From Telmatactis stephensoni (taxonomy: Eukaryota > Cnidaria > Anthozoa > Actiniaria > Isophelliidae), in NCBI GenBank assembly GCA_029948255.1, contig JALIZF010001577.1, forward strand, positions 310,001-374,000: a stretch of 64,000 bases of DNA, given 5' to 3'. The position numbers and the translations under genes are program-made. The notes under the pieces are model-generated. The model worked only from the letters and a program-made list of their open reading frames with translations. It was not told the DNA's origin and searched no databases. Positions 14,540-49,400 of this stretch are shown in pieces. Positions within the stretch are counted from its first letter, which is position 1, and every line of letters begins with the position of its first letter.

Positions 14540-14913
14540 AGTGGGACGAAGATGAAATTTGAAAATGGCTTGAAACTCGGTTGAACGATATGAATCACAC
14601 AGCAAGGCACACAGCAACATATTTTATTTCTATTTGAAAAGAGACAGAAAAAAATCATCAAGTATACTAGCATCTAAATTGTGAGTAAATGACGTCATTT
14701 ACTCAAACCTATTGTTCTTTTGGCTTTTAAATTCAAATTTTTCGTTGATAATGAAAAGTAATTCTTCATATATATAATGCATTATGACTAGATAATTTCC
14801 TGAATTCTGATTGGCTAACGCATGGTCTGTATTTTGCCATATCAGGACCGCTGTCCCGGATGAAAAGAAAAATTTGCGTTTGGCAATTGTTTTAGCGGGA
14901 CTTCTCAAAGCCA

Positions 14914-15078
14914 TATAATAAACAATTTATTAACCGAGCTGCTCGGTCTGTACGGGAAAATATCAGACCTCGGTCTTTTTTGTACGGACCTCGCCTACGG
15001 CTCGGTCCGTACTGTCAAGACCTCGGTCTGATATTTTCCCATACAGACCTCGCGCTCGGTTAATAACCCTTTATTATG
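14914..15078. repeat. Foldback hairpin with ctcggtctg/cagaccgag arms
   Basis: The arms carry TTATTAACCGAG...CGGTCTGTACGGGAAAATAT and the near-complement ending ctcggttaataa. It lies 93 bp left of the large transposon. Confidence 0.72.
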
Positions 15079-15170
15079 TCATCATTGAGTTACTTCAAAT
15101 AGGAAGAATCCATTTCCAAATTTAACCAATTTTGATCGTCGCCCCCTTTAAAGGTGTACTGACACATATC

Positions 15171-15577
15171 TATGGCGCGTTTTCCCTGACAAAATTCATG
15201 TTCATAAATCGAGCATACGTTTGTCTATTCGACCGTCTGATCAACTTAATCGAGCTGCTGGTCAGTTACAAAACGAGCATCGCTTGTCCAAATCGAGCGA
15301 CAGAGAAGTTGCCTCTTATCTCCACTTTGATAGTGACCCTTATTCGAGCGGATGTCTGACAAATCGAGCAGAAGAATGCTTTGCTACCCATCATGCATTG
15401 CTATCCCGGCCTACTTCCGCTGCCATTTGTGCCTGCGGGCTCACACTCTCCCTTTGCACGTGGAACAGGGACAACTCTTCTTCGAAGGTGAGTGCGAAGC
15501 AATATTTTATAGTACTTTTTTGCTCTATTTCTTGCATTTTTGCAAGGTTTTTTCCGTTTTAGGGTGGGGAGAATTGT
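15171..15577 (+). promoter_or_regulatory. Left terminal inverted repeat with leader exon and splice donor
   Basis: The repeat starts TATGGCGCGTTTTCCCTGAC. It contains a strong splice donor, CTTCGAAG/GTGAGTGCG, with the intron starting at 15488. The transposase exon begins after the acceptor at 15821-15822. I infer that the repeat supplies promoter, transcription start and a non-coding first exon. Several short ATG frames exist in it, but none is in frame with the transposase ATG. The frame that is in phase has no ATG, so translation most likely starts in exon 2. Confidence 0.65.
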
Positions 15578-15825
15578 ACATTTTCAAATACGTTCAATAC
15601 AGAACATAAACCAAAGAATCGGGACTTTAATATCGGCGGTTGGGATAGACACAAGCCTAAAATTTTACAGGTTTCTTTTCAGATTAAATAGCAATCAATG
15701 TTTAAGGTTACTTCAAAAACAAGCTTTGAACATTTTTACGTCTTTAAAAATACTTATAATTTTGCAGCTAAAGCTTAAGACTGCTTATAGTCATCACTAA
15801 AATTCTTTGTTTTATATATTAGATA

Positions 15826-18548
15826 ATGGACCATCAACAACATATGCATATCCTGAGAGGAATGAGAAATACTTTATTAGACATCTTGGGGAGACTGCAA
15901 AATATGGACTCTGAAGGACTTGACTCGATTATCTTCAGACTAGAACAACTTTCTTCTCATATCTTAAGACTGTGTGATGTTGACCTTGTAGATGACACCT
16001 TGCATAATTTGATTAGTGACACTATTTTTAAGTTACGCCAAGTAGAATATATTCATGATGATGCGCCATTTGAAGTTGGAGCTGTGCAAAGTGGTGGACG
16101 AGGCCGCCCAAGCTATGACATAACCTACAGCCAACTTAATTACCTGTTAAATTATGGGTTTTCAGTACCTGACATTGCTCAAGCTCTTGGTGTATCTGAA
16201 AGAACAATTTTCAGACGTATGGCACAATACAATATGTCAGTACAGCAATCCTTCTCTATACTAACAGATGATGAGCTTGATGACAAGATTAGAGAAGTAA
16301 TGCAAGAGTTTCCAGGTGCTGGATATAGACGCGTTATTTCACAGCTGATTGCTTCTGGAGTAAGAGTGGCACAAACCCGCGTTCGGCAATCATTACAAAG
16401 GATTGATCCTCAAGGTGTAGCTATGAGATGGCTTTGCTTAACACCAAGAAGAAAGTATAATGTATCGGGCCCTCTTGCATTGTGGCATATAGATGGGAAT
16501 CATAAGCTAATCAGGTAATACAGATGGTACTTCTAGATAATAAGTTGTATATATTTACAAATATTGGTCTTTTCTAAGACTCAAGGTGAATATAGTAATA
16601 CAGTCATCTGGGTGTAATGTAAACCTGTATCATGACTAAGCATCGTAATTGTTGCATAATTTATTTTAATTCATTTTAAGGTGGCTGGATATCCGTCTTT
16701 CACTTCACGAATTAAGCAACTTACTCTTGGCCAACCAAAATGGTTTTCCCACCAGTTATTGGACTTGAATCAAAGTTTAGATTTTTGTCTGTTTCACTTC
16801 TGTTTTTGATGCCTTAGTGATAGTAAACAAAGATTGCTGAAACAACTTTTCTTAAATATCTCTTGAACTCGAGCAGCTCTAGACAAGAGACTAAGTGGGC
16901 AATAAACTACACACCAAGGCAAGGAAATTAAGGCACAATTCAAAAATTTTTACCAAGTCATTTTTTAATAAATTACAAACAATTCAAAAAATGAAATTGA
17001 TTAGACCATTAAGTGATAAGCTTACCCTAGTTAAATCACAATGATTTTCCTGTCAGTAGATGAACTTAGGTCAAGGTTTTGTTTTATTGTTAGTTTCAGT
17101 GAAATTGGTGTTACCATGGCAACAATATAAAAATAAACCTGAAATCAGTTTTTCTGAAATATGTCTTGATTTCAAAGAATTCCAGGCACCCAAATACTAT
17201 GTAACAATGTACATACCAAGGCAAAGGAGAGAAAATAGAATTAAAACTCTTTGATTGAAGTGATTTGGAATAAAGGACTGGTAATAATTATTAGCAAATT
17301 AGCATTGGTATTTTTCTTTTTTTTTTAAACTTTTATTTAAGTCCAAATGCTAGTGTAAAAACCATTTTGGTTGGTCAAAAGTAGTTAATTCATGGGATGA
17401 AAAACAGAGGCATGGTCAATAAAAACTATATCAAACCACATTTAGTTATATTTTTCTTTGATGTTCCAGATGGAGACTAGTCATACATGGCGGTATTGAT
17501 GGCTTTACCAGGATTCCAGTATTCCTTAGATGCAGCACCAATAATAGAGCTGATACTGTACTGAATGCCTTCTTAGAAGCAACTGCAGAGTACGGCCTAC
17601 CTTCAAGAGTCCGTTCAGACAAAGGGCTTGAAAATACTGCTGTGTCACGTTATATGCTACAACACCCAATGAGGGGGCCAGGAAGGGGCAGTATGATAAC
17701 AGGAAGAAGTGTACATAATCAGAGGATTGAGAGGTTATGGCGAGACCTTTTTGAAGGAGTAACTTATATTTATTACCATTTATTTTATCACTTAGAGGAA
17801 AATGGTTCTTTAGATCCAACTAACCAACTGCACCTATTTTGCTTGCACTATGTGTATGTCCCAAGAATAAATAGACACATAGACAAATGGAAAAGTGGTT
17901 TTATACATCACAGGATCCGAACAGCTGGTAATAGAAGCCCTATGCAACTGTACATCCTTGGCCTTCTTAACTTGAGAAACTCTCAACATTTGGCTATCCA
18001 GGATGTTTATTCAGCCACTTCAGTGAGTATATTAGAGCAAATGCTATATAGTGGTTTTCATAAGCCCGTGAAACACACTTTAGTGCATCACTCACTAATA
18101 CACCCTAATTCCACAGTGTTCTTTTGTTATTATTTGACTATTACCCCACTGTAACTGATACATTTTGTTTCACCAGTTAAGGAAAACCACTCAATGTATG
18201 TCCTGTTGTGATGGCATAACCTTTGTGGATTATCAATATCATTGTCAATATCATTGTCAATATCATTTTACATTTTAGTACTTGGTATTAATCAGTAGCA
18301 AATAATCTTTTTTCCTGTTTTAGGACCCGAATGACTATCAAGAATATGGGATTGATTGGGATGGGCCTCTTCCAGAAGAAGCTGATTGTGAAGACATGGT
18401 AGAAGTTCCAGAAACAATTTGTCCATTGAATCAAGAGCAGTATCAAGAACTTGTTCATGCTATTGACCCCTTAGCACAGAGTGATTGTTATGGTATTGAT
18501 ATTTATATGGAAACTATAGCATTCACAGTTAATAAGGTATCTTCCTAA
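15826..18548 (+). CDS. IS3-type DDE transposase/integrase of the transposon (four exons counting the TIR leader)
   Basis: Coding exons 15826-16514, 17470-18022 and 18324-18548 join in phase to give 488 aa. A first helix-turn-helix lies at about 100-137 (SVPDIAQALGVSERTIFRR). A second, of the IS3 HTH_21 kind, lies at about 152-197 (FPGAGYRRVISQLIASGV). The integrase core follows, with likely catalytic D223 (LWHIDGNHK), D280 (VRSDKGLEN) and E317 (NQRIERLWRDL); D280 and E317 are 36 residues apart. The C-terminus is an acidic tail beginning DPNDYQEYGIDWDGPLP. The protein should cut and join the element's ends in the nucleus. All catalytic residues and splice sites are intact, so it may be active. 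Intron 2 carries a decayed MITE (16676-17450). Confidence 0.85.
16676..17450. mobile_element. Decayed TTAA MITE inside transposase intron
   Basis: The left end TTAAGGTGGCTGGATATC plus ccagttattggacttgaatc, and the right part with agtgtaaaaaccattttggt, match the complete element at 45987-46496. The right end has degenerated to aaaccacattta. It is an old insertion nested in the intron. Confidence 0.6.
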
Positions 18549-19010
18549 GTTATAACAGTACAGGAGGACACAGTGTGACTATTTGCTTAATTTGCAATCA
18601 AAATGTCAAGGTACCAACTTAAAACATGAGAAGGAGTAATCACTCTTAGTAAAATCTAAAAACTTTAGTATAATAGTGCCAAAAACACAAAGCCAGGCAT
18701 GACCAAAGTGTGTTGCATGTTTAAAATTTGTTTCCCATTTATGTGAATCTTAAGCTTTCTATTAGCTTGTTCAGCTGCAAAATTTACAGTGAATGTTTGG
18801 GAGGTCCAGGTACCTTGAATGTAGTTGACCCATAAAAAGAGTGGTGGCACACATACAACCAACAAACATTTTTATTGCATACATTGATAATTCATTAGAG
18901 TGAATGATCAGTACACTTAACCAATGAAAAATTACTATTAATAATAATTATCTAAATGGTACAAAATCCTTTGTTTGTCATTACATTTATTTAGTGTGTA
19001 GTTACTAAAA

Positions 19011-19730
19011 GGAGGAATGAGCTACAATGAGCTACTATGAGTTGTAATTACTAAAATCCAGACCCACTTCAATCCAAACAACCTTACAAAACTAGCCGAA
19101 CCCACCATATTTTACTCTTACCTCTGAATGCCACATTTTCTGAGACATGCTCTCTCTCATCTGCCATAAGCAAAATTATTTCTCATAGTAAATAAAAATA
19201 CAAGACTGCTTAAAATGATAGCATTTCACAGAGAAATAAGCTCAGATATCCAAATGTTCACGATTTGTTTCATACCGGGTTCCCTGTGGCTAAAAATATA
19301 AACAACCAGGCATTCCACTGTGCATTCCACTGCCTGGTTGAAATAAATGGTAGAAGAAGAAAAAGAGAATGTAAAAGAATATATAAATAAATATACGAAA
19401 TGACTATGATACCAGCATTCTCTTTTTCACCTTGTGTACAGGCGGCAGGGGAATGCCTGGTTGTTTATATTTTTAGCCACAGGGAACCCGGTATGAAACA
19501 AATCGTGAACATTTGGATATCTGAGCTTATTTCTCTGTGAAATGCTATCATTTTAAGCAGTCTTGTATTTTTATTTACTATGAGAAATAATTTATGCTTA
19601 TGGCTGATGCAAGAGAGCACATCTCAAAGAAAATGCGGCATTCGGAGGTAAGAGTGAAATATGGCGGATTCAGCTAGTTTTTGTAAGGTTGTTTGGATTG
19701 AAGTGGGTCTGCATTGTAGCTCATTCCTCC
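19011..19730. mobile_element. 720-bp foldback nested in the transposon
   Basis: GGAGGAATGAGCTACAATG at the left matches the complement at the right end. The arms run about 300 bp, including atgatagcatttcacagaga and its partner. The centre is about 19330-19440. It occupies the space between the convergent 3' ends of the transposase and HECT genes. Confidence 0.72.
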
Positions 19731-20323
19731 ATACTACAGTATTTAGTGCTACATAAGTGTTGCTACAGCAATATTCAATTATAAGTACCGTACCAGTACT
19801 TTTTACAGCAGCATGTTAGTTGATTAACAATTGTAAAATCACAAGATGCAAATCATATTCATTTTCTGGTACCCATTTTCTAACCATCACCAACAATAAC
19901 AATACTCAAGTATGAACTAACTTTGTTTGGCTAACACAACACTGTAAACTCAAACTTCTGTAAACTTCTGTTTTTGTTTACTATATTTCCCATCATTGCA
20001 GGATTGTAAATTAAAATGAAGCCAACAAAAAGTTTGAATCTCAGATGTTTTTTTAAATTACTTTCAGATATCAAAATCTCATTTTAACTCTAAGCTTCAA
20101 CTAGAAAAATTGACTAATTAGAAATACTTCCAAAAATAACTAAAAACTTTGCAAATTCAAAAATAAAAATTAAAACTTCACTAAAGTATAGTATTGATAC
20201 AAAGCTTAGAAGCTTGTAATAACTTCCATATGCACATTACCAAGAATGTCTTTAACATGAACAAAACGTACTAATATACTTTAAGAAAATATAGGTTGCA
20301 TATTCATATTATTGCAACAAAAT

Positions 20324-23300
20324 TTATGCACACCCAAATCCTCTGCTGTTCTCACATGCTTCTTGCACTTTTGCATGGAAATCATTGAAGTTATCATAAG
20401 TGGTCGGTACACGTAGCACTAGGCCACATGTTTCTGCAAATAGTAAGCTGCTATATTCATTGAACTCAACTTCAATCTTCTTTTCAAGTCCCAGAGGTGG
20501 AATTCTTGATAGGCCAGTCATAAAGTGCAAGAACTTTTCAAGCATACTTGGACCTGCATCTTTAAATCAAAAGAAAAAAATATACAAAACCCCTAATAAT
20601 TTAACTGTAAATTATTTACAGTTTTCTTTTGTAAATATCACGTCTGTGATGTACAATGGTAGTCCAATTTGAATACATCATAATATATAGTGTATACCAA
20701 ATTGAAAAAATAAACATTGCAGTATGTAAAACCATACATCATATAAAAAAATATTCCAGCTGTAATATTGAATGAAAGTGCTTGCAAGTTAAGTCATAAT
20801 TTTGTGCTTTTTGAAGCATGCATAAGTCTGATTTCTTGGAAATATATAAAAAAATGTACATTGTATTCTACATGTACAACTAATGTTACCATTTCCTAAA
20901 TTGAAATCTTCTTATCAAAAAGAACAACTGTATGTAAATGATGCTTCAAAATGAAATCATACTTATTTTTTATCTTTTTTAATCTTACCTTGCTCAAGCT
21001 TTTTGATACTGTCTACAAGGTAGCTATATGTCTTCTCTGCCTTTTCATCACCAATAGTTCTTGCAGAAAAAAGGTCAGTTATATGCTGACTTGTCAGTGG
21101 GTTTGACTTGTCAGACACAAAGTACTGTTCCATCAGCTCTGGATGAGTTTTGATGAGGTTCAGCACACCCAAGGTGTCGAGACCCTTTATGAGTTGGTCC
21201 AATGGTTCTTTTCTTTTCTTTATTGCAAAGTGGACTACAAGTGTTTGTATAGCCAATTCTTTGTTTTCAGTGTTCAGATCCCTTAACCAGCCAGCATTGA
21301 CAAGGTTGTCGAGAAGTACACCATCTCTGCTGAGGACATCCAGCTCGTCTTGTGATGAAGCAGCAATAACCTGTAATTTGAATGTTGCATTTTTATTGGT
21401 TAATACTTTTCCTATCCTAAGGTTTTTCTCATAGTTTATCACTGTTGACACAAATGGTGTAACAATACACTCAAAATCCACTCAAACTATTGGGGACTTC
21501 TCAAAAAAAATTTTTTTTTGTAAGCAAAGAAAGTCAATCTAACTTTAATCTGAAATGTAATATTTATTTCAAGAGGAAATTATGTTTATGGGACATTCCA
21601 CTGTACCTTCTCAGCAAGTTCTTTTATTTCTAGGTCACACAAATCATCCATGCAACAATAACTTGAGGCACTTTCAAGAGATGTGCTTGCAATATAATGG
21701 TACACACAAGGACTAAGGCAAGGAATGCCTATGTCCATGTGAATAATTATGTATGCTATCATTTTGCCAGCAAGTTGGAATAACCTTGATTGTATGGCTT
21801 CCATGGAGTATATAGGGAGTTTCCTGTCAATGTCTCCCTCAAACAGGTTGGCCTCAGCAGAGAAAATCTTCTCTCGTAACAGTGTTCCATATTCATTTCT
21901 TAACCCCCCAGCATCAATTCCTCTTTCGCCTTCAAAGGTTACAAAAGGGGGAGATGTGGTCTTGAACTTTGGGCTTTTGAAGGTTGCAATACTTTCCCTC
22001 CACAAATCTTCCCTTAAAACTGATATGCGCTCCATACCACTTAAGTCCAAACTTTTCTTATGTTTTGACATCAAATCTTCCAAACTGAGCTGGGAACTTT
22101 GTTCTTCTTTTATTTCAAACACACTCTCCATTAAATCAGCATCTGATGATGAATCTGTGTCATTACCTGTTTGAAAATTATTTTTTTGATTGAATGTACA
22201 ATTACAATGTTACATTTTAATCTGATTTGATTGAGCCATTGATCAGTATTTTGTCATGTACTGTAATGGCTATTTATATTAAAGAATAAAAAATTGTATA
22301 AACAACTTTTAAACACAGAATGTAGAAAGCATGGCACTGAAGCTGTAATGTGTCTTAAAAAATAAATTAATTTTAAAAAATTAACAAAAAGTACAATGTT
22401 GAGCAAATAAAGAACTTTATTGATACCTTTATCAACCTGAAGCAGCTCTTCAGCAGCAAGGTTGATATCCCCTAATGCACTTTCCAAAGCTTTTCTTACA
22501 CTATCCTGGTGTGTGTCAGGAAACATACTCTGCAGCTTTGTGATGTCTAAATGAGAGCATAAAGTTTGATTCCATGATAAGCACTCAAGTTTGCAGATGC
22601 ATAAAAATTCTTCATGTGCTAAAATATAGTTCAATGTATAATACCTTCTTGCAGTACTTTCTTGACAATATCATTTGGACTGTAAAAAGAGTTATTAAAA
22701 TGTTAATAAAGGTAGACTAATTTCATTCACTTAAGTTTTAAATATGCTAATGAATGGCAAAATGTCAGACAAAGCAATAGGAACAGGATCAACACTAATT
22801 TTGAAAGCAAGGTTTACTTAACATAGGGAAACAAACAATGTGCAATGTTGTGATAACACCTATACAAATGTAGCTAGGGTACAATTTCAATGTATATATT
22901 AAAAGGTCATTGTTAACAATTTTGTGGTGATGTACAGTGAAGAACACTTTTATATTACTCAATTAAATACACCTTAGCAGACGCTAATTTTGTTGGATTC
23001 TTTTGTGTCTATTATTGTAACATTACAGCTTGAATATTAGATTTTAGCTTCATGTGTTTAGTCTGCCTTCACAATGATAGAATGAACTGGGATGGAATAC
23101 ATGATTTACACAGTGAGCCATGAATCATGAAGAAAATATTAAGCCTTTGTGCACCTGGAGTTAGTAACTGTTACTGATGACAAAAAACCACTTCCACCAC
23201 CTCCACAAACATCCTGATGTTGCCTCATCATATTCATTGGAACATTTAATTTACAATTCAGGCATGGAACCTGTGGGCTCGAGTGGTTCTAAAGTAAGAA

Positions 23301-24553
23301 CATCCAAATTAAATAAATAATAAATCATTAAGAGAATGTTAGACATCTTAGCAAAGGGCCATAATTGAAGGGTTCCAAGTGAAAACAGCCTAAGTGACGT
23401 TTTGGTGGAGGTCCACACTTTTTTAGCATAGGAAAGTTTTAGTTGATATCATTTTAGGCAATTGAACAAAATCATCAAAAAGTCACTCACATCATTTTTA
23501 TAGGTAGCCCTTCAATAAGTATAATTACATTCAAGAGAAAAGTCAGTCAAATACATAAGTAAATCAAGTCCCCACCCATCTACTTTCTTACCCCTACACC
23601 CATTTTTTTAAAGTATTTACATCTGAAAGAATAATAGCATCAAGACTGGCAACGATGAGTTTGACATGGGACAACAAAAGGTGGAGGTAAAGAGGTGCCA
23701 TTACCCATTGGCATTTTTCATGTAACTTAGTCACTACCTAGGTCAAGGGTAGCCCCAGTGTATGGCTACTAGGTGTCTAATAAATTATTATTACTCACTT
23801 GTGACTGACAGACTGCAACTGTATTCATAATAAAAAAATTATATTGTTATTATTACTCACTTGTGACTGACTGACTGCAGCTGCATTCAAAACAATATCT
23901 TTCTGGAGAGGTCTTAAGTAGCCTTTGGCAGAACCCAAAGTGGTCTTTAAATATTCAACTGTGTAACCTCCTGGAGGAATTTCAAGAACCATTAACTTTC
24001 TGTTTCCCTTGTCTCCAGTACGGAGAATTTCATAACCACCAGCATCTTTAAGGCCTGTAAATGCATTTAAAATTTGGTTGTGCACATGATCACTATTGCC
24101 ATCTTTGTTGAAACAGATGCTTTTTTCTTGCATTCCACATAAAGCCATAGATGCTTTCTCTGATGCTGTTGGTACATTGGTAGAATTTGTTTTCATTAAA
24201 CAGAAAAAATTCTTTGTCCAAGTGTTTCTGATTGGAAAAGACATTCTTTTTCCCGTCGAGGAGATAACAGTGCGTCGCTTAGGAGGTGGAAAAGATGTGC
24301 TACCACGGCTACTTATTGGTATCCTGAATCCAAACAGACTTCTGTGTTCAGATGCTGCTGAAGAAGACTGAACATTGGTGGCTGCTTGTGGAGTTTGTGA
24401 TGTACTTGGTTGACTTGGTTGAGAAATATTCCCTGAATTTGGGCTTGAATTATTCCCGGAATTACTTCTAGATTGTGACTCCAGTTGATTTACAGCTTGC
24501 ATTAAGTTGTTTGCACAAGAGCGCAATAACTCTTTTGTCTCCTTGTCAGTCAT
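20324..24553 (-). CDS. UBZ-CUE-HECT E3 ubiquitin ligase-like protein of the transposon (seven coding exons)
   Basis: Exons 24553-23861, 23288-23155, 22679-22645, 22546-22427, 22166-21607, 21370-20989 and 20553-20324 join in phase to 717 aa with no internal stop. Residues 1-230 are a Ser/Pro/Asn-rich, then basic, N-terminal region without a recognised domain. A zinc finger C240-x2-C243-x11-H255-x3-C259 has the exact spacing of the Rad18-type UBZ ubiquitin-binding finger. Residues about 277-325 form a CUE domain (MFP at 295-297, LL at 322-323). From about 375 a HECT domain follows: FVTFEGERGIDAGGLRNEYG in the N-lobe and a C-lobe with T683-C684, LRVPTTY and a terminal GFG. C684 fits the catalytic thioester cysteine. 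Expected role: transfer of ubiquitin to unknown substrates, perhaps host proteins that control the transposon; the last point is inference. HECT proteins related to G2E3 are common in fish and cnidarian genomes (from memory). Confidence 0.83.
23794..23895 (-). repeat. Tandem duplication of exon end and splice donor
   Basis: tactcacttgtgactgac occurs at about 23794 and again at about 23853. It covers the last bases of the first HECT coding exon and its GTGAGT donor, so a spare donor copy lies some 59 bp into the intron. Confidence 0.65.
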
Positions 24554-24818
24554 CTATAAAAAAATATAAACAAACACACTCACATTTTAGGTTTATTTTA
24601 TCTGTTTATTTATCAAACTTTCACTGAGTAAACGATATAGCAAAAAGAAATACAAGAAATAAACAAATAAAGAACTCAATAACGTAATATAGACATTAAA
24701 AAAGAGAAAACTTAGCGAGGGACAATCACAACAGAGCATGAAAGCCCGAACTTCAATAATACGAAATATATGATGCACAAGATAGACATAAAAATATAGT
24801 TACAAAATCATTTCGACA

Positions 24819-25225
24819 ACAATTCTCCCCACCCTAAAACGGAAAAAACCTTGCAAAAATGCAAGAAATAGAGCAAAAAAGTACTATAAAATATTGCTTC
24901 GCACTCACCTTCGAAGAAGAGTTGTCCCTGTTCCACGTGCAAAGGGAGAGTGTGAGCCCGCAGGCACAAATGGCAGCGGAAGTAGGCCGGGATAGCAATG
25001 CATGATGGGTAGCAAAGCATTCTTCTGCTCGATTTGTCAGACATCCGCTCGAATAAGGGTCACTATCAAAGTGGAGATAAGAGGCAACTTCTCTGTCGCT
25101 CGATTTGGACAAGCGATGCTCGTTTTGTAACTGACCAGCAGCTCGATTAAGTTGATCAGACGGTCGAATAGACAAACGTATGCTCGATTTATGAACATGA
25201 ATTTTGTCAGGGAAAACGCACCATA
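24819..25225 (-). promoter_or_regulatory. Right terminal inverted repeat with leader exon and splice donor
   Basis: This is the reverse-complement copy of 15171-15577, with the first mismatch at base 6 (T for C). The same donor occurs here, with the leader exon ending at 24909 and the intron starting at 24908. The next acceptor (AG at 24555-24554) abuts the ATG of the HECT gene at 24553. Both genes of the element therefore appear to be driven by the same sequence and to share the same leader. Confidence 0.65.
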
Positions 25226-25961
25226 ACTTTGAGTCAAGCAATCTTAATCGATCTAGAAATTCAGAAGTAAATTAAAGTCGAGAGTTACTCAAGCTTCATA
25301 TGTTGTTAGCAATCATCTGGTAGTGAGTAAATAGATTTAAATAGACTATGAGTTTGTTAGGGGCTTCCAAAGTGTGAATTTTAAACAATTTGCCTGCCAA
25401 ATTTTAAACAATTTGTCTGATTGCTTACAACACATGAAACTTGAGTAACTAATTAATATGTTACATTTTTATTTTGTGTTTGGGATGTTACACTACAATA
25501 AACAGTTACAATTTTCAGCTACAAATACCTTTTGCTTCTGGAGCATCTGGATTTTCCTTTGACTTTATATAGATACTCTTCTTCTCCATTTCTGAGTTAA
25601 CAACTGTCCCCCTCATAGCTGGGGCAATTATGGGCGGAACCTCACCAACAATCACTTCATCACAGGCACTAACGCTGTCAGTGGTAAAGAGCAGTCTTTC
25701 GATCCACATGGTTTTTTCTCTCCGAAGGTATTCCTCAAGTGGAATAGGGACCCCATTTTCAGATTTTTCATACTTGACCTATAGAGAACAAATTTTACAG
25801 TGTGAATTTTACATCTGCGGTCATAGGGACCACCCTCATTCGAGAGAGTGCTTAGTCTTTAAGCCCCAGGTCTTGGGGTTGAGGCTAAGTGGTATTTTAC
25901 ACCTGTAGTGTGAATATCAGCTCCACTCGGGTTGTCTTATTCTGGAAATTCCTTAAATTCC

Positions 25962-26049: not shown

Positions 26050-29000
26050 TTTTTTTTTATTACATCGAGCAGAGGCGGTAAGACGTGCTCTGTACATGTA
26101 AGCAGTTTAATTGCTATTTTCATACTTGAATCGTCTTTTATTATATCCATTTAGTCATCAAACAAGTCTTCTCAAGTTTATGGATCATGATTCGTTCAAA
26201 TTTTATTTTAATGTTACTCGTTTGTGTCGTTTGTTCGTTTTGTGGCAAAGACTTCACTACGCTGGGTCGCCATTCTTGGCGTTGTAAACAACGGATTAAT
26301 CAAGCGGATCAAGGTCGCTCTGGTGTTAATGTCGCAAGGCAAATACCCGTAATTCACCCTCCAGTTGGTTCTGCAAACTCCAATGTTGTCAAATGTTGCT
26401 GTGGTAAGAACTGTAAAGGAGTGAGAGGTTTGAAGATGCACCAGCGAAGCTGCAGAACTGTACTTGGTCTCAACGACGAATTACGTGCTGATCTTGAAGA
26501 ACAAATTTCAAACGACTCTACAAATATCCCCTTAGATGATTTTATTAACGATGATTACTCTACTGACACTGATGAAACTCAACCACAATTAAAGAAAGGT
26601 ATAAATCTTCCAAAAAATGATTTCGACTGGTCAACGGCCAATGATTATTTCAAAATTGCCCTTCTTTTGAATGCGCCAATCGGATCACAAGATGTCAATT
26701 CAAACATCAAGCATCTGAATGAAGTTGTTTATAACTACTTTGTTGAAAATTGTGGCCAAATCGAGAAATCCAATAACAATGCCTTTGCTAGTAAATACAA
26801 AGACTATTCTGTAAAAGGGCTAAAGAACGTTTTAAAGCAGTTAAAGACTACTAACGGCGCTGATGTTAACGAGATTAAATTTGTGTCCCGTGTTTTGCGT
26901 GACAAGTTGCGTAAAGATGTCACTTCTGATTCAAACCAGGAACAATGCAACGAAGTTAATCACGACAAGGCTATTAATAACAGTTTTTGGGGATATGTTA
27001 AAAATATTCTCAACAAAAGTAAATCCGTTCTCCCCACCTTCAATATGGTAGAGTGTGCTTCATATTTCCGTAAAACTCTCTCTGCAGTCATCCCAAACAA
27101 GTTGTTTATTATTCCAAGCTGGATCCCTAGTCTACCTGCACCTGAAGTTCCTTATAACCTTGATCCTCCTACCTACGAACAAATTACTAATGTCATCCGT
27201 AAAATGAAAGCGTCTGGATCTCCATGTCCTCTTGATCAACTCTCCATTATATGCTTCAAACGCTGCCCTGCTTTGCGGTCTTATCTGGCTGAAATTATAC
27301 ACCAAATTTGGTCATCTGGTTCTGTTCCCTCTGAATGGAAAAAAGCGTGCACTATATTAATCCATAAAAAAGGCAACACTAATAATCCTGCAAATTTTCG
27401 CCCCATCACTTTAGAATCCATACCTTTAAAAGTGTTTACCTCGTGTCTCCGTAACTCGATCTTCCGTTTTCTCACTGTCAACAATTTAATTGAGCATAAC
27501 ATCCAAAAAGGTTTTACCCCTGGTTTATCAGGAACCTTGGAACACACTTCACAGATGGCAAACATCATCAACAAAGCTCGCATTAAACAACGCTCCTTGG
27601 TCATAACTCTATTAGATCTTAAAAATGCTTTCGGTGAAGTCCATCATAATTTGATCCAATCTGTCCTCGCTTATCACCACATTCCTGAACACATTAAAAC
27701 CCTTATCAAAAGCTTGTACACTGACTTTAAAACATCCATCATCACTCATGATTTTAATACTCCATTTATCACTGTTGGTCGTGGTGTCCTCCAAGGTGAC
27801 TGCCTTAGTCCTTTACTGTTTAATCTGTGTTTCAATACCTTCATCCAGCATATTAAAGCAGATAAATACCGTCAGTTTGGATTCTCCTTTAAAGATATTG
27901 GCCTGTTTTTAAACCCTATTCACTGGTTTCAATTCGCCGATGATGCTGCTGTGATAACTGGTCTGGAATCTGAAAACCAACATCTCTTAAATCGTTTCAG
28001 TATATGGTGTAAGTGGGCTGACATGATTGTTAGGGTGGATAAATGTAGCACTTTTGGAATAAAGAAATACGTCACTAAATCAGTTCAATACCTCCCGAAA
28101 CTTATTATTAACAATGCCCTCGTCCCTTGTGTTAAAATTGGAGAGTCTTTTAAATACCTGGGACGATATTTTGATTTTGATATGTCTAACCAAATGCACA
28201 AGTCTGAATTAACTACTCTTGTTGATGACCTGATGTCTGACATTGACCTCAAGCCACTTCATCCCAAGAATAAAATACTTCTATATAATCGCTATGTACT
28301 CTCTAAAATATCTTGGCATTTCACCTGTGCTGATCTGTCTAAAACATGGATCGTTGAAAACCTCGACTCAGTGGTTCTTCAATATATTCGTAAATGGCTA
28401 GATGTACCTATATCTGGAACACTCAGTAACGTTTTTCTTCCACATAACAAATTTGGTTTAAATATCTGCCCCCCTTCAATTAAATTCACGCAGTGCCAGA
28501 CAGTTCTACGTAAAGCTTTAAAAATGTCGCCAAATAATTCAGTAAGTGACCTTTGGAAATCAACAAGCTGTTTCACAAATCTCCAATATGACGCATATAA
28601 TTCAACTAAGGACGTCATTAAGGATTTCCAGAAGGATCAAGAAGATAAGCAATTAAATCGTCTCGTTTCTCAAGGTTTCTTTTTCCGTAGTGTCATTGAA
28701 AGCTCACTGTCCAAGATAAACTCCATTTGGTCTTCAGCTCAATCTAGTCTGCCAAAAAACATCTTTAACTTCACTATACGCTATATGAACAACACTCTAC
28801 CCACACGTAAAAATCTCACAAAGTGGGGATTGTCTTCTAGCCCTGAATGCACTTTTTGTCTACTGCCGGAATCTCTTCTACATGTCGTTTCTGGATGCAA
28901 AGCCTATCTCGATCAAGGCCGTTTTACCTGGAGACACGACTCTATCCTTAATTTCCTGGCCAAATCCTTACAAGGTGTTAATGGTTACTCTCTTTATGCT

Positions 29001-29605
29001 GATTTAGCTGGTTTTGTAAGCCCCTCTGTATTGACTGGCGATGATTATCGTCCTGATCTACTAATGTCAGCAGCAAATAAAACTTTGTACATTCTTGAAT
29101 TGACGGTTGGATTTGAATCTAACCTGCAAACTAATATAGCTCGCAAAAAAGCCAAATACAAAGACTGTGTAAATATGTTATCTAACCAATTTAGAAAAGT
29201 AATTTTTGTCAACTTGTCTGTCAGCGCGCTTGGTGTGTTTGCTAAAGACTCTGGCAGCTTTGTTACAATGTTAGATGATCTGGGCTTTGACAGCAAATGT
29301 AAGCAATATATAATCAAATCAGTGATAAAAATAGCAATACGATCAACCTACTATATCTTTTGCTGTAGGAACAAAGAATGGCAAAACCCAGACTTCATAA
29401 AATACTGAGAACGTGTTTTTGTTGTTGTTGTTGTTTTGTTTTCAATAGTATTTGTTTGTTGTCAAATTGTATCGTTAATTTCCCATTACTATAGTATTAA
29501 GTTTACGATTCAAGTAGCCAACTGTGAATTACCTACATGTAGTGAGATTCACAATTGTAGTTTTTAGGCAAAAACGTAATAAAGTTTCCATTATTATAAC
29601 AATAA
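26049..29605 (+). mobile_element. R4/Dong-like non-LTR retrotransposon, apparently full length
   Basis: A short 5' region follows the (TTA)n array, then comes a single 3.2-kb ORF and about 200 bp of 3' region ending near a tattataac tract. The element lies antisense in an intron of the HMGXB3-like pseudogene. The exact ends are estimates. Dong of Bombyx is known to insert into TAA repeats, and the adjacent array fits that habit. Confidence 0.65.
26187..29408 (+). CDS. Retrotransposon polyprotein: zinc fingers, reverse transcriptase, restriction-like endonuclease
   Basis: The ORF is 1073 aa and uninterrupted. Two N-terminal CCHC-like fingers (CSFCGKDF...GRHSWRC near residue 17, and CCCGKNCKG...KMHQRSC near 70) probably bind DNA. 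The reverse transcriptase shows PANFRPITLESIPLKVF, KGFTPGLSGTLEHT, LDLKNAFGEV, GVLQGDCLSPLLFN and FADD at 583-586. After it come a knuckle CTFCLLPESLLHVVSGC from residue 888 and an endonuclease motif RPD at 955-957, E971 and a downstream KKAKY. An endonuclease of this kind located C-terminal to the RT defines the R2/R4/NeSL-type elements, which reverse transcribe at a nicked target. The start is the first ATG in frame (26187). The intact ORF suggests a young copy. Confidence 0.9.
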   Translation: MIRSNFILMLLVCVVCSFCGKDFTTLGRHSWRCKQRINQADQGRSGVNVARQIPVIHPPVGSANSNVVKCCCGKNCKGVRGLKMHQRSCRTVLGLNDELRADLEEQISNDSTNIPLDDFINDDYSTDTDETQPQLKKGINLPKNDFDWSTANDYFKIALLLNAPIGSQDVNSNIKHLNEVVYNYFVENCGQIEKSNNNAFASKYKDYSVKGLKNVLKQLKTTNGADVNEIKFVSRVLRDKLRKDVTSDSNQEQCNEVNHDKAINNSFWGYVKNILNKSKSVLPTFNMVECASYFRKTLSAVIPNKLFIIPSWIPSLPAPEVPYNLDPPTYEQITNVIRKMKASGSPCPLDQLSIICFKRCPALRSYLAEIIHQIWSSGSVPSEWKKACTILIHKKGNTNNPANFRPITLESIPLKVFTSCLRNSIFRFLTVNNLIEHNIQKGFTPGLSGTLEHTSQMANIINKARIKQRSLVITLLDLKNAFGEVHHNLIQSVLAYHHIPEHIKTLIKSLYTDFKTSIITHDFNTPFITVGRGVLQGDCLSPLLFNLCFNTFIQHIKADKYRQFGFSFKDIGLFLNPIHWFQFADDAAVITGLESENQHLLNRFSIWCKWADMIVRVDKCSTFGIKKYVTKSVQYLPKLIINNALVPCVKIGESFKYLGRYFDFDMSNQMHKSELTTLVDDLMSDIDLKPLHPKNKILLYNRYVLSKISWHFTCADLSKTWIVENLDSVVLQYIRKWLDVPISGTLSNVFLPHNKFGLNICPPSIKFTQCQTVLRKALKMSPNNSVSDLWKSTSCFTNLQYDAYNSTKDVIKDFQKDQEDKQLNRLVSQGFFFRSVIESSLSKINSIWSSAQSSLPKNIFNFTIRYMNNTLPTRKNLTKWGLSSSPECTFCLLPESLLHVVSGCKAYLDQGRFTWRHDSILNFLAKSLQGVNGYSLYADLAGFVSPSVLTGDDYRPDLLMSAANKTLYILELTVGFESNLQTNIARKKAKYKDCVNMLSNQFRKVIFVNLSVSALGVFAKDSGSFVTMLDDLGFDSKCKQYIIKSVIKIAIRSTYYIFCCRNKEWQNPDFIKY

Positions 29606-43441: not shown

Positions 43442-46400
43442 ATGAAACGTATACTTAACTGGCTTGTCTTCGTCGCCATGGTAACACGTATCCAGGGGCA
43501 ACACACGAAATCACCTACACACCAGCTTCACGACTGTGCAGGAAAAGCCATTACAGCGATAGTGATGGAGAACCCACCTTATGTCATTTACAACAGCAGC
43601 AAAGGAGGAGAACCCGGTGGTGTAATGGTTGATTTCTTTACATCTTCGGTAAAGATGTGTTACGAAGAGTGTAATATCACGTGGAAGGTAATAGGACTTG
43701 TGGTTACACTGCCGGTACCAAACTTCAGTTAAGGTGGCTGGACCCTATTTCGCCAGTGCGCGGGTAGTCGAATTGAAGCGGCTATTAATTGCGTTACAGA
43801 ATTAAGTTGACCAAACTTTTTACGCACACCTACTACAAATGGACCAAATTTTATAATGATGCTAGTTTGGTTGAAATCGGAGCTTTTTTAACATCGAAAT
43901 TGTTATACACTTGATTTGAAATTTTGCCAATTTTCTCAAAATCCAGACCTCGACGAGCAAAACGATTTATGAGACTTTGTAAATCAAATGTTTGTCTATA
44001 ATGTGAGAGCGTTTCAAGAAATTCTATTAAGCCGATTTTGAGTAAAAACGGAGCAATTATTTAACTTTGAAGAAATTTAAAACCGCGGGTGCTCTACTAA
44101 ATTAATTTTATAACAATAATTTTCCAAAGAAAAGTTGCAATATTTTTGGTTCCAAATAATACCAAGGCATGGTTCTTTATTTTGTGAATATGTCATCGTA
44201 TTTGCAGTTTTTGATCGCCGTTGAGACGACTGTACGTAAAGCACTAAATTGCTGCGTTTATCTCGGAATTTCGACATCCACGTTAATAATACTGTTTCTT
44301 GAAAACTAGTAGATGAATTTTTTTTTATTTCTCGATATTGAATATTCAATCCTTTACCAGTAAGGTGTGTAAATTACAAAGGCATTGAAGTTTTTTAAGA
44401 ACATTAAATAATTTTTTAAACATTGCCATATGTGCATCTCTATTCTCCGAGTTGTTGCCGGTGTTTGATTATGCATGCCTGCATGCGTGTCGCTTTGGCA
44501 CCTCGTGCAAAAAATGCAAATACATGGAAGTCTTCCAAGTTACCTGGACTGGTGAACTACTTTTCTTCGCCTTTTTAGCCTTTAATGTGTTTTCCTGCAA
44601 TATTTCACTTCTCCGTTTTCTTTTTGTACAAGGAAATACCATAGTTCTAGAAACTGTAGTAAGGAACTGCTACGTACAGCGTTACTCTGGATATCACTGG
44701 CGTGACTTTCCATGTATATTTGCATTTTTTGCACGAGGCGCCAAAGCGACACCCATGCAGGCATGCATAATCAAACACTGGCAACAACTCGGAGAATAGA
44801 GATGCACATATGGCAATGTTTAAAAAATTATTTAATGTTCTTAAAAAACTTCAATGCCTTTGTAATTTACACACCTTACTGGTAAAGGATAGAATATTCA
44901 ATATCGAGAAATAAAAAAAAATTCATCTACTAGTTTTCAAGAACCAGTATTATTAACGTGGATGTCGAAATTCCGAGTTAAACGCGGCAATTTAGTGCTT
45001 TACGTACAGTCATCTCAACGGCGATCAAAAACTGCAAATACGATGACATATTCACAAAATAAAGAACCATGCCTTGGTATTATTTGGAACCAAAAATATT
45101 GCAACTTTTCTTTGGAAAATTATTGTTATAAAATTAATTTAGTAGAGCACCCGCGGTTTTAAATTTCTTCAAAGTTAAATAATTGCTCCGTTTTTACTCA
45201 AAATCGGCTTAATAGAATTTCTTGAAACGCTCTCACATTATAGACAAACATTTGATTTACAAAGTCTCATAAATCGTTTTGCTCGTCGAGGTCTGGATTT
45301 TGAGAAAATTGGCAAAATTTCAAATCAAGTGTATAACAATTTCGATGTTAAAAAAGCTCCGATTTCAACCAAACTAGCATCATTATAAAATTTGGTCCAT
45401 TTGTAGTAGGTGTGCGTAAAAAGTTTGGTCAACTTAATTCTGTAACGCAATTAATAGCCGCTTCAATTCGACTACCCGCGCACTGGCGAAATAGGGTCCA
45501 GCCACCTTAAGCAGCACGCAACAATGTTTTCAGAAACGCGCGGTCTAGAAAAAATGTTACAAATTGTAAAGTGAAAATTAAAGGCATCATGAAACATTGA
45601 TAACTGAATAACGATCATTAAACAGTAGAAAACAAATAATTTTGTACCTAGTATAGCTCCAGACTGCTTTATGGTTTTTGTTTATAAATTAGCCCAAGTG
45701 AGCTTAAGTGATTGTTATGTAAAGTGCTAACCAGAAATGTGTTGGCTAATTTCACAAAGCAGGATGACAAAACCATTTTGAAAATGGCTGGCACGTTAGC
45801 ATAATGTCAGTATTTAAAACATTATATCGATCCACCTGTAAAGCTCTAAAGCGCCTAATGTATCTTTCACCTGTAAAACGGCAAGATTTCTTTCTATAGC
45901 TAAAATACTTCCGTTCGAAATATGCCATTTTACATTCAAATTCAAATTCAGCCATATAACGCGCTTTCTCGTTCTTTATACATTACTTAAGGTGGCTCGA
46001 TATAGTTTTTTACACCAGTTATTGGACTTGAATCAAAGTTTTGATTTTTGTCTATTTCACTTCAATTTGTGTTTCCATAGCAACGGAAAACAAAGATGGC
46101 TGAAATTGATTTATCTAAAATATCTTTCGAACTCGAGCAGCTCTAGATCTAGACAAGGGACTATATGTTTTTGCGATTTATTCAAAAACGGCTTGGTAAA
46201 AGTTTTTGTATTAAGCCTTAATTCAGTCTTTGTTTTAGTATGTAGTTTATTGTCCTATGTCCCTTGTCTAGGGCTGCTCGAGTTCAAAAGATATTTTAGA
46301 AAAATTGATTTCAGCCATCTTTGCTTACCGTTGCTATGGCAATACAAATCGAAGTGAAATAGACAAAAATCAAAACTTTGATTCAAGTCCAATAACTAGT

Positions 46401-49400
46401 GTAAAAACCGTTTTGGTTGGTCAAGAGTAAGTTGCTCAATTCGTGGAGTGAAAAACGGTAGCATGGTCAATAAAAAACTATATCGAGTCACCTTAAAATA
46501 AAAAAATGTATGCACGGCTCCTTGTGAAAGTTATCCATTACATTTTTCTCAGGTTGTCAATGATACTTGCAAACTAGTGGAACATATCCTTAGCAACCAA
46601 GGCGACGTCGCGTTCCCTATTATGTCATCACTAGCAGGCAATTTGACCTGGCCATTATATAAAGGCACACCATACATGTTTCGTACCATAGTAACGGCTA
46701 AACACCGTGCAGTTATCGTCAATAAACACAGATATAACGAAAGGCTAAGGAACATGATGATGGCATCTGTGATGGAAAATTGGCCGATATTTGTGTACAC
46801 TATCGTGTTGGCTGGTCTATCGGGCATCTGCATATGGATTTTGGTAAATATTATTTTCTGGACTGAATCTTCCCCTAGATCTCCATACCACATCACGCAA
46901 AATCAAACCAAAAACAAACAACTGAACAAACAAACGAACAAACAAAAAGGCAACGAAACAAAGATATAAACAATTAAACAAACATATGAACGAACGAACA
47001 AACAAACAGTAAACAAATGAACGAACAACAAACAAACAGCAAACGAACGAATAATAAACAAACAAAAACGAGTGAGCGAAACGAATAAACAAACAAATAA
47101 ACGAATCACTGTAACTGTACTGGAACCAGCACGATTTGTCCGACTAAGAGAGGTTCAATTTGTAGGGAACGAGTTGAGCTTCTATTAGAATGCTCTTTGA
47201 ACGCATGCAAGTTTAGATTCTTATCTTGGATGTGTTTGAACACTAATCTACATTGTCGCATTTGAATACCATCCTATGTGGTTAATCGGGACTTTTGATA
47301 TAAGGCACATTTCAACCTCCAACACATAATGTGTATATGCTTCAGTCTTAAAGTGCTACTCTGATCAAAAAACGGCGAAATTCTATTTAGCAGATACTTT
47401 GTGAAATAAATCTTCAAGGGGCTATTGATCACCAGTTAAAATATCTTTTTAGAATTCAAAAGGGAAGTACTAGATTTTTAGCGTCCATTTTAGATGTCAG
47501 TGACGTCATCGACTTAACTCATGGATTTACTCCATACATTTCTTTGTATTTTATGACTTGAATTATTCTATTCATTTCTGCTCTAATAATTTTGCTTAAG
47601 AGTTTTCTTGCAGTTATTTTGTCAAGGATTAATTGCATGGTCAGTGATCTGCAATTGAAAAAAATTACACTAAGATATTTTGATTGCAAAATACAAAGAA
47701 ATGTATGGAGTGAGTCCATGAGTTAAGTCGATGACGTCACTGGCACCTAAAAAGAACGCTAAAAATCTAGTACTTCCCTTTTGAATATCAAAAAGATATT
47801 TTAACTGGTGATCAATAGACCCTTGAGGATTTATTTCACAAATTTTCTGCGAAATAGAATTTCACCGTTTTTTGATCAGAGTAGCACTTTAAATTGCATT
47901 ATCCTTATTACAAAGACATCTTATAGCTCAGAAACCAATACGGTGACCCCCTCTTTTTTTCTCGCTTTTAGAATTGCCAAACAATTATCTTAAAATGTTT
48001 GGATTTTAAAGGAAATTCATTGATGAAATCTAATGCTCCGGAACTACCTTAATGGAGGAAAATCACATTTTTTCATTCAAATACCTGGAAAAAAAATTAA
48101 TCAAGAAACATTGTTCACTGTATAGTGTAGGTATTTAACCTCGAACCTTTGGTTATTTCTACTTTATAGGAGTCACACACTAATTCCGACGACTTTAAGA
48201 AATCCTTCGTGAGGGGATCATATGATGGATTTTGGTGGGCTTTTGTTTCCATGACGACGGTTGGGTAAGTTTTCCAGAAGGAAAAGATGATGATGATGAT
48301 GATGATGATGAAAATGATGGTTATAATTATCATGCATGCGCCGTCCGGTTGTCTTCGATCGAGGCCGACGTCCTCGACTACGGGCTTTCACACGTCCTAA
48401 AACCTTATGAATTTGATGCGCACTTTAGTTCCTAAATGTTTTGATAAACAAACTCAGATGCCAACAAATTACTCTATCTTTAGGTATGGAGACAAGACTC
48501 CCAAAACAATAATAGGACGGGCGTTTGGTGTGATGTGGATACTCGTTGGTCTTGTCATGGTAGCCATGGTAACAGCTACAGCAACTAACGCTTTGACTAA
48601 CACTGAAAAAGGAATTGGAAATATCATGGTATTACTCTCTTTTGCACATTCATGAAAAGAACATATAATACAAGGCACATTTTTATATCGTTAATTTAAG
48701 ATATGAACGAAAGTTTCGGTAGCCAAAATATCATTTTCCTTTAGCTTCGAATATAAGCAAAATTTTCAAAGTAGATTTCTTCATTTAAGGCATTTTCAGA
48801 CACCCAAGGCGTCTCTTCCCCTTTTTCTAGACGCCCACAGCCTAAGAGATACGCCAAGACGCATTTGACACACATTCCCGCCCCAACCGTGCAGTGCAGT
48901 GACATTGACCGTGCCGTCTTCACAATTATACGAAATCCGCTCTGTTGCGAAGACAAGTAAATTGCGATGACTGCAGTTTAGCGTTTCAGATTTGCTATTG
49001 TCACTAATATCATCAACCTTGTATAAACAAGCCAGTTGCATCGGAGAAAATGTTGCATCGTGTGACACCTCCAAAACCAACCTGTTGCGCGTGCGCAACG
49101 TTGCAAAAGAAGTAGCCTGCGTCACATCCGAACAAATACTTCACGAGAGTATTTGTCCGGATGTGACGTAGGCTACAAAACAAGTTGTATCGTGCGTCCG
49201 GATGTTCAGTTTCCTTCTAAAATTTCTGGTTGACATAAATTATAGGGGTTACTGCCGCTTTGTTTTCAGGTTGCTGTATTGTCGTCTACTGATGCATCTC
49301 TTGTTGCTTCAAGTAAAGGGGCTCAAGCATTAGGTATTTCAAAAGCACCCCTCTAAAGCGACCACCTCCAACCAACCTCTGTTAAACGACCACACTGTAA

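Follow-up and report, generated by a model that had tools for sequence, protein, structure and literature searches.

A sea anemone IS3EU transposon with a predicted HECT ubiquitin ligase as its second gene

The element and its two genes

The window analyzed here is a stretch of 64,000 nucleotides from the sea anemone Telmatactis stephensoni (assembly GCA_029948255.1, contig JALIZF010001577.1, positions 310,001 to 374,000 of the forward strand; contig C379 below). Its positions 15171-25225 are occupied by an IS3EU-type DNA transposon of 10,055 bp, in which a transposase gene and a gene for a predicted HECT E3 ubiquitin ligase converge, each starting near the inner end of its own terminal inverted repeat (Table 1). 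A cut-and-paste transposon is commonly expected to bring hardly more than its transposase. Here, the HECT gene is a gene of the transposon and not a neighboring host gene, because the two genes share their insertion as a unit and because the same convergent pair recurs across families. The terminal repeats, of 407 bp each, differ from one another at a single base, and the foldback element nested between the two genes has arms of ~270 bp that are 93% identical.

The gene models of the transposase and of the HECT protein were derived from the sequence, and complete models were obtained for the window family only. The transposase gene, on the + strand, has three exons with GT/AG introns and an unbroken frame, and encodes 488 amino acids. 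The protein matches the Pfam integrase core rva_4 (E 2.5e-81), a DDE core related to those of IS3 and IS481, and in a 16-row alignment D280 and E317 are invariant and D223 is nearly so. The candidate N-terminal helix-turn-helix (HTH_23) scored 24.3 bits, against a Pfam cut-off of 24.6.

The HECT gene lies on the - strand and has seven exons, again with GT/AG introns and an unbroken frame, which encode 719 amino acids. Its HECT domain is well above the Pfam cut-off (65.3 bits vs 23.9, E 9.5e-18), as is, by less, the CUE domain (24.4 bits vs 21.1, E 2.2e-5). The predicted catalytic cysteine, C686 of an ETC motif, aligns with the TC of E6AP, and either TC or AC stands at the corresponding C-terminal place in five other loci (C110, C347, C216, C372, and C583). 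The finger of exon 2 did not reach the Pfam cut-off for UBZ (11.9 bits vs 25.6, E 0.19), and only the spacing of its cysteines and histidine is similar; family C has a similar CxxC-x11-H..C pattern, judged by eye. Relatives of exon 1, 35-38% identical, were found at three other places, two of them in C438 and one in C255; the structure prediction for this exon was poor (mean predicted local distance difference test score, pLDDT, 46) and was not used. Searches of protein collections returned 3 and 9 matches for the HECT protein vs 3536 for the transposase, counts that depend on shared 5-residue words and are no measure of abundance. Viral contigs were scanned with two queries, Acropora HECT protein P0001 and a transposase alignment, and no relative was confirmed.

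An earlier note on this stretch, made from the letters without database searches, had described two near-identical 407-bp inverted repeats enclosing two intact genes, one for a DDE transposase of the IS3 type and the other for a UBZ-CUE-HECT protein. The repeats, the integrity of both genes and the type of transposase were borne out, and so were the HECT and CUE parts of the second protein; its UBZ part was not. The note said nothing of the unmatched flanks of the two ends as assembled, of the foldback element or of the convergent order of the genes.

Table 1. Features of the transposon and of its borders, in window positions
Feature	Position	Strand	Evidence
Target duplication CATATC, left copy	15165..15170	.	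right copy on contig C446, outside the window
Left terminal inverted repeat, begins TATGG	15171..15577	+	matches right repeat 406/407; shared with the five other long copies
Six direct CGAGC motifs in the outer repeat part, possible transposase-binding iterons	15210..15369	+	sequence
Predicted 5' splice donor AG/GTGAGT within the left repeat	15486..15493	+	mirror at 24903-24910 (-); 12/12 repeats of six copies
Transposase exon 1: N-terminal region, candidate helix-turn-helix, start of DDE core	15826..16514	+	gene model, Pfam
Transposase exon 2: remainder of rva_4 DDE core	17470..18022	+	gene model, Pfam, alignment
Transposase exon 3 and stop	18324..18548	+	gene model
Nested foldback element (inverted repeat), between transposase and HECT genes	19051..19719	.	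~670 bp, in 6/6 long copies
HECT gene exon 7: stop, and C686 of the ETC motif as predicted catalytic cysteine	20324..20559	-	gene model, alignment
HECT gene exon 6	20989..21370	-	gene model
HECT gene exon 5: HECT domain begins	21607..22166	-	gene model, Pfam
HECT gene exon 4: CUE ubiquitin-binding domain	22427..22546	-	gene model, Pfam
HECT gene exon 3	22645..22679	-	gene model
HECT gene exon 2: CxxC-x11-HxxxC zinc-finger-like (UBZ-like, weak)	23155..23288	-	gene model, Pfam below cut-off
HECT gene exon 1: N-terminal region, no Pfam match above cut-off	23861..24553	-	gene model, Pfam
Right terminal inverted repeat, finishes CCATA	24819..25225	-	repeat comparison
ACTTTG, duplication of another insertion (C426), joined here by assembly or recombination	25226..25231	.	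flank comparison

Copies, insertion sites and related families

Using the left repeat as the query against the 483.5-Mb genome we obtained 31 matches, among which are six assembled long copies with both repeats (C379, C530, C446, C428, C426, and C268). All exons of both genes are present in each of the six. The HECT frame is open in all of them and the transposase frame in three, being broken by a premature stop in C428 and C268 and by small frame-breaking gaps in C446. C428 also carries an insert of ~15.8 kb in the HECT intron that follows the finger exon, and the C426 copy (L018) has one of ~687 bp within its left repeat, adjoining the predicted splice donor. The only copies that lack HECT are five short ones of 2.7-2.9 kb (L022-L026: C481, C388, C220, C178, and C514), which match neither protein and share with the long copies no more of the repeat than its outer 240 bp; they are non-autonomous relatives of the window element. 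One of them, C178, the only copy run through Tandem Repeats Finder, is packed with arrays of ~10-bp repeats in both orientations. Among the remnants found in the repeat search, the stretches tested of C29, C15, C776, and C347:174500-184499 match neither protein, and C1075 has a fragment of the transposase only.

Exact 6-bp duplications, usual for IS3EU, surround four of the long copies as assembled (C530, GGTATT; C428, CGAGTG; C426, ACTTTG; C268, TCTTTT) and all five short ones, while the flanks of the window copy (CATATC and ACTTTG) and of C446 show no matching duplication as assembled. The right flank of the window copy is, however, the right flank of C426 (99.8% over 5.1 kb, to the contig end), and the right flank of C446 is that of C530 (99.9% over 10 kb); comparison of the left flanks between those copies gave no match. 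A homolog of the window's left flank was found on C612, 86% identical over 571 bases and 98% over the last 102, and after CATATC this contig runs on as GTTGCTGTG.. without the element, which makes it an empty site. These letters recur in inverted orientation next to the C446 copy, where the first 61 are identical and identity over 241 columns is 91%. Since the flank letters of C612 and C446 agree, C379 and C446 hold the two halves of one CATATC insertion, and each would have been joined to a foreign flank across the near-identical elements, by the assembler or by real recombination, most simply by the assembler. The flanks duplicated across transposon copies on contigs C379, C426, C446, and C530 are thus probable mis-joins. 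The missing duplication of the window copy, which we had first read as speaking against a simple insertion, is explained by the right flank that it has from C426 and by its true flank on C446.

A second empty site was found for C268: when its two flanks are put together at one copy of the duplication, they match C258 (594/594 bases at 99%). The six assembled copies therefore amount to five insertion sites, all with an exact 6-bp duplication, and the duplications and the empty site together imply that HECT and the transposase travel together, in a 10-kb unit that inserts precisely. The window element is recent, as judged from the near-identical copies and the empty sites, and it is complete.

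Other repeats lie around it. A palindromic short repeat at 14783-15079, with dozens of genome copies that are 93-98% identical, is immediately to the left of the element. Just beyond the right repeat, within the flank that the window has in common with the C426 insertion, an open frame of 1092 amino acids (26130-29408, + strand) resembles by eye a reverse transcriptase of the long interspersed element (LINE) type. Finally, 46007-46484 is another repeat shared with the first transposase intron, to pieces of which (element 1523-1809 and 2157-2262) it is ~83% identical.

Four elements of other families were read end to end and each has terminal repeats, a 6-bp duplication and a convergent HECT gene, and the termini TATGG..CCATA are found in all five complete families, the window family included. 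These elements are C110:379250-388214 (8965 bp, duplication GACATT), C347:315167-323829 (8663 bp, CATACT, HECT Pfam 9.4e-10), C216:97652-105698 (8047 bp, AGTAAA, HECT Pfam 4.3e-6), and C372:409717-415854 (6138 bp, AAACAA, HECT Pfam 1.5e-5). The C110 transposase is 39% identical to that of the window, and its HECT protein 50, 33, and 46% by exon. The HECT exon 5 stretch of C110 taken alone (L039:5880-6500) has no Pfam match, and the kinship of this protein rests on its 50% identity to the window protein and on the conserved C-terminal exon. In C583 the HECT domain was just below the Pfam cut-off (22.7 vs 23.9) and the stretch retrieved showed no repeats; the same contig (L057, 802-6773) has two long open frames, BEL/Pao-like by eye, beside the IS3EU transposase and the HECT fragment. 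On C438:325850-344313 one transposase locus precedes two HECT N-terminal exons separated by ~10 kb, an arrangement that may reflect nested or tandem elements.

The pairing was also seen genome-wide. Searched at the protein level, the genome yielded 68 matches to HECT, with 62 of 371 candidates scored, and 92 to the transposase, with 88 of 428 scored; both numbers are lower bounds. In the clustered set, a transposase lies within 30 kb of 34 of the 40 HECT loci, and within 12 kb of 31, with a chance expectation of ~0.14 for pairs within 12 kb; all 34 pairs are convergent. Adding a Pfam HECT scan (125 matches; 186 candidates shown, 129 scored) brought the listed HECT loci to 99, of which 39 are within 15 kb of a listed transposase, every one of them convergent. 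The other 60 presumably include host HECT genes. Copies of one family are not independent in these counts; the five families are distinct.

What the ligase may do for the element

In the three families in which both likely start codons could be placed, these lie almost symmetrically from the element ends, at 656/673, 357/353, and 397/417 bp. In C372 both are within ~50 bp of a repeat of 368 bp that is 100% identical, which leaves little space for separate promoters. In the window family, AG/GTGAGT is present in 12 of 12 repeats, and an acceptor-like TAG stands just ahead of each start codon. We infer that the repeats drive the transcription of both genes, probably via a shared non-coding first exon spliced at AG/GTGAGT, and that the ligase and the transposase would therefore be produced together. 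The inner part of the repeat, positions 241-407, is missing from the short copies, which would fit a division of labor in which transposition depends on the outer part and expression on the inner one.

Between families, the proportion of non-synonymous differences (pN) in HECT is well below that of synonymous ones (pS), at 0.36 vs 0.71 for families A and B and 0.22 vs 0.76 for C444 and C211, and the transposase gives 0.36 vs 0.84 for A and B, with synonymous sites near saturation in these comparisons. Purifying selection on HECT, which the earlier note had asked for, is thus supported between families and not among the very young copies. That note had also proposed that HECT is a component of the element, and this was upheld: the six long copies all carry it, the C268 empty site indicates that the whole unit inserts at once, and transposase and HECT occur together within matched repeats in those six copies and in four further families. 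Copies lacking HECT, or HECT loci fixed outside transposons, either of which the note would have taken as the mark of a captured host gene, were sought in this genome and were not found for this gene. The roles that the note suggested for the ligase, marking host repressors, DNA-repair proteins or surplus transposase for degradation, are candidate roles.

The two genes of the window family give conflicting trees. The transposase tree joins the family with C255 (100/99) and a joining with C110 is rejected (p-AU, approximately unbiased test, 4.4e-5), whereas in the HECT tree it groups, at 93/93, with C110 and a protein of Acropora cervicornis, and the pairing with C255 is rejected (p-AU 8.9e-7). 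Exchange of the ligase domain between elements is the simplest reading of this conflict, and the ligase has probably been exchanged between transposon lineages. If it is freely exchanged, a host target would fit it better than a private transposase partner.

With moderate confidence, we favor the interpretation that this is an IS3EU transposon whose second gene, a predicted HECT E3 ligase, moves with the transposase and would likely ubiquitinate, in trans, host proteins that restrain transposition. Through its CUE and UBZ-like regions the ligase would recognize proteins that are ubiquitinated or chromatin-associated, and it would pass ubiquitin to a host silencing or repair factor, likely helping the element to escape host controls. 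All five complete families have retained the ligase gene and its convergent arrangement with the transposase, so ubiquitination probably contributes to the persistence of these elements in an animal genome, and it becomes testable which host factor restrains them. We also put forward, as a plausible but tentative extension, that HECT is the standard second gene of animal IS3EU, that it shares the repeat-borne promoter of the transposase and is exchanged between lineages, and that many coral and fish proteins named "G2/M-phase-specific E3" are transposon ligases.

Several observations weigh against these proposals. In the pairing, 6 of the 40 clustered HECT loci have no listed transposase within 30 kb, and no HECT locus is listed within 15 kb of 29 of the 68 listed transposase loci; three of those 29 (C216, C372, and C583), picked for having none listed, were inspected and HECT was present in all three. 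Among the young copies, the HECT differences from the window are mostly non-synonymous (non-synonymous to synonymous, 4:1 in C530, 5:1 in C428, and 3:1 in C268, with 0:1 in C426 and none in C446), that is, no constraint on HECT is visible at that depth, and G415R in the C428 HECT alters a residue that is invariant in a three-row alignment. As for the trees, the conflict concerns one pair of loci, chosen after the identities had been seen; the HECT clade that joins the window family and C110, at 93/93, is not starred; and what was seen at C255 were pieces of the genes and not a whole repeat-bounded element.

Four alternatives were considered. It is somewhat unlikely, though by no means far-fetched, that this genuine arrangement has been recorded before, for instance in the Repbase consensus annotations of animal IS3EU. 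The superfamily has been in Repbase since 2013, and 45 families, 17 of them autonomous, were there in 2022 (PMC10045372); our literature search, which did not reach Repbase entries, found, among the papers that could be searched, none combining IS3EU and HECT and no report of this arrangement.

We regard it as rather unlikely that the HECT protein targets the element's own transposase, for its turnover or for its release from the strand-transfer complex, and so limits or completes transposition. Both genes begin near near-identical repeats, from which co-expression is expected, and the pair stays together in the five complete families, as such a partnership would have it. However, the conflicting histories of HECT and transposase are unexpected for a tightly co-adapted pair of enzyme and substrate, and HECT is open in the three copies with a broken transposase, though these are too young to weigh much.

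It seems very improbable that a host HECT gene was captured once and has since ridden along by chance, as a passenger of no use to the element. Such an origin would suit the near-neutral differences among the young copies and the annotation of several HECT relatives as G2/M-phase-specific ligases, but it would not account for open HECT exons and a catalytic cysteine motif kept in five complete families at ~50% HECT identity or less to the window family where compared, for a pN well under pS between families, or for the convergence of all the listed pairs. Finally, an unrelated host HECT gene enclosed with a transposon, by chance, between the repeats of other insertions, an idea to which the window copy as assembled, with no matching target duplication, lent some color, is refuted, since the six assembled copies of the unit represent five sites, all with exact 6-bp duplications, the window's own duplication was recovered on C446 and empty sites exist at C612 and for C268.

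Relation to known ligases and transposons

The named relatives of the HECT domain are host ligases of the G2E3 type (G2/M phase-specific E3), from Chaetura and reptiles, at 21-23% identity. Most of those listed differ from the transposon protein in carrying PF13771, PF13832, and PF26054, which we take to be zinc/PHD-type modules and which are unmatched here, and the two that were placed in the tree stand apart from the transposon HECT. Annotated expansions of G2E3-like ligase genes may, by way of warning, be transposon genes and not host families. In the fish Cottus, unclassified candidate repeats include a G2E3 match (PMC5638112).

Ubiquitin-system enzymes encoded by transposons have a precedent in the Helitrons, which encode VTD or OTU deubiquitinases suggested to protect proteins needed for transposition (PMC9741609). 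Those elements are rolling-circle transposons, their enzymes remove ubiquitin and do not add it, and the domains are inside the Helitron frame, unlike the second gene described here (PMC9741609).

The closest likeness is with IS3EU itself. The IS3EU/GingerRoot superfamily has the same IS3/IS481/integrase-type DDE transposase, the same TA..TA termini and usually 6-bp duplications (PMC10045372). The difference is the second gene, here a HECT ligase, and neither "ubiquitin" nor "HECT" occurs in the main text of that source (PMC10045372). The IS3EU elements of fungi carry TET/JBP dioxygenase and alpha-kinase genes; like the anemone element they terminate in TAYGG..CCRTA, duplicate 6 bp of their target and have a further enzyme gene, the alpha-kinase, running opposite to the transposase, and their TET/JBP gene has been exchanged between transposon lineages, as is probable for the ligase here (PMC12730594). 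They differ in that the accessory enzyme is a kinase or a dioxygenase and not a ubiquitin ligase, that the hosts are fungi and not an animal, and that the exchange there crosses superfamilies (PMC12730594). IS3EU elements thus gain a recurring theme of a second enzyme, a kinase or a dioxygenase in fungi and a predicted ubiquitin ligase here.

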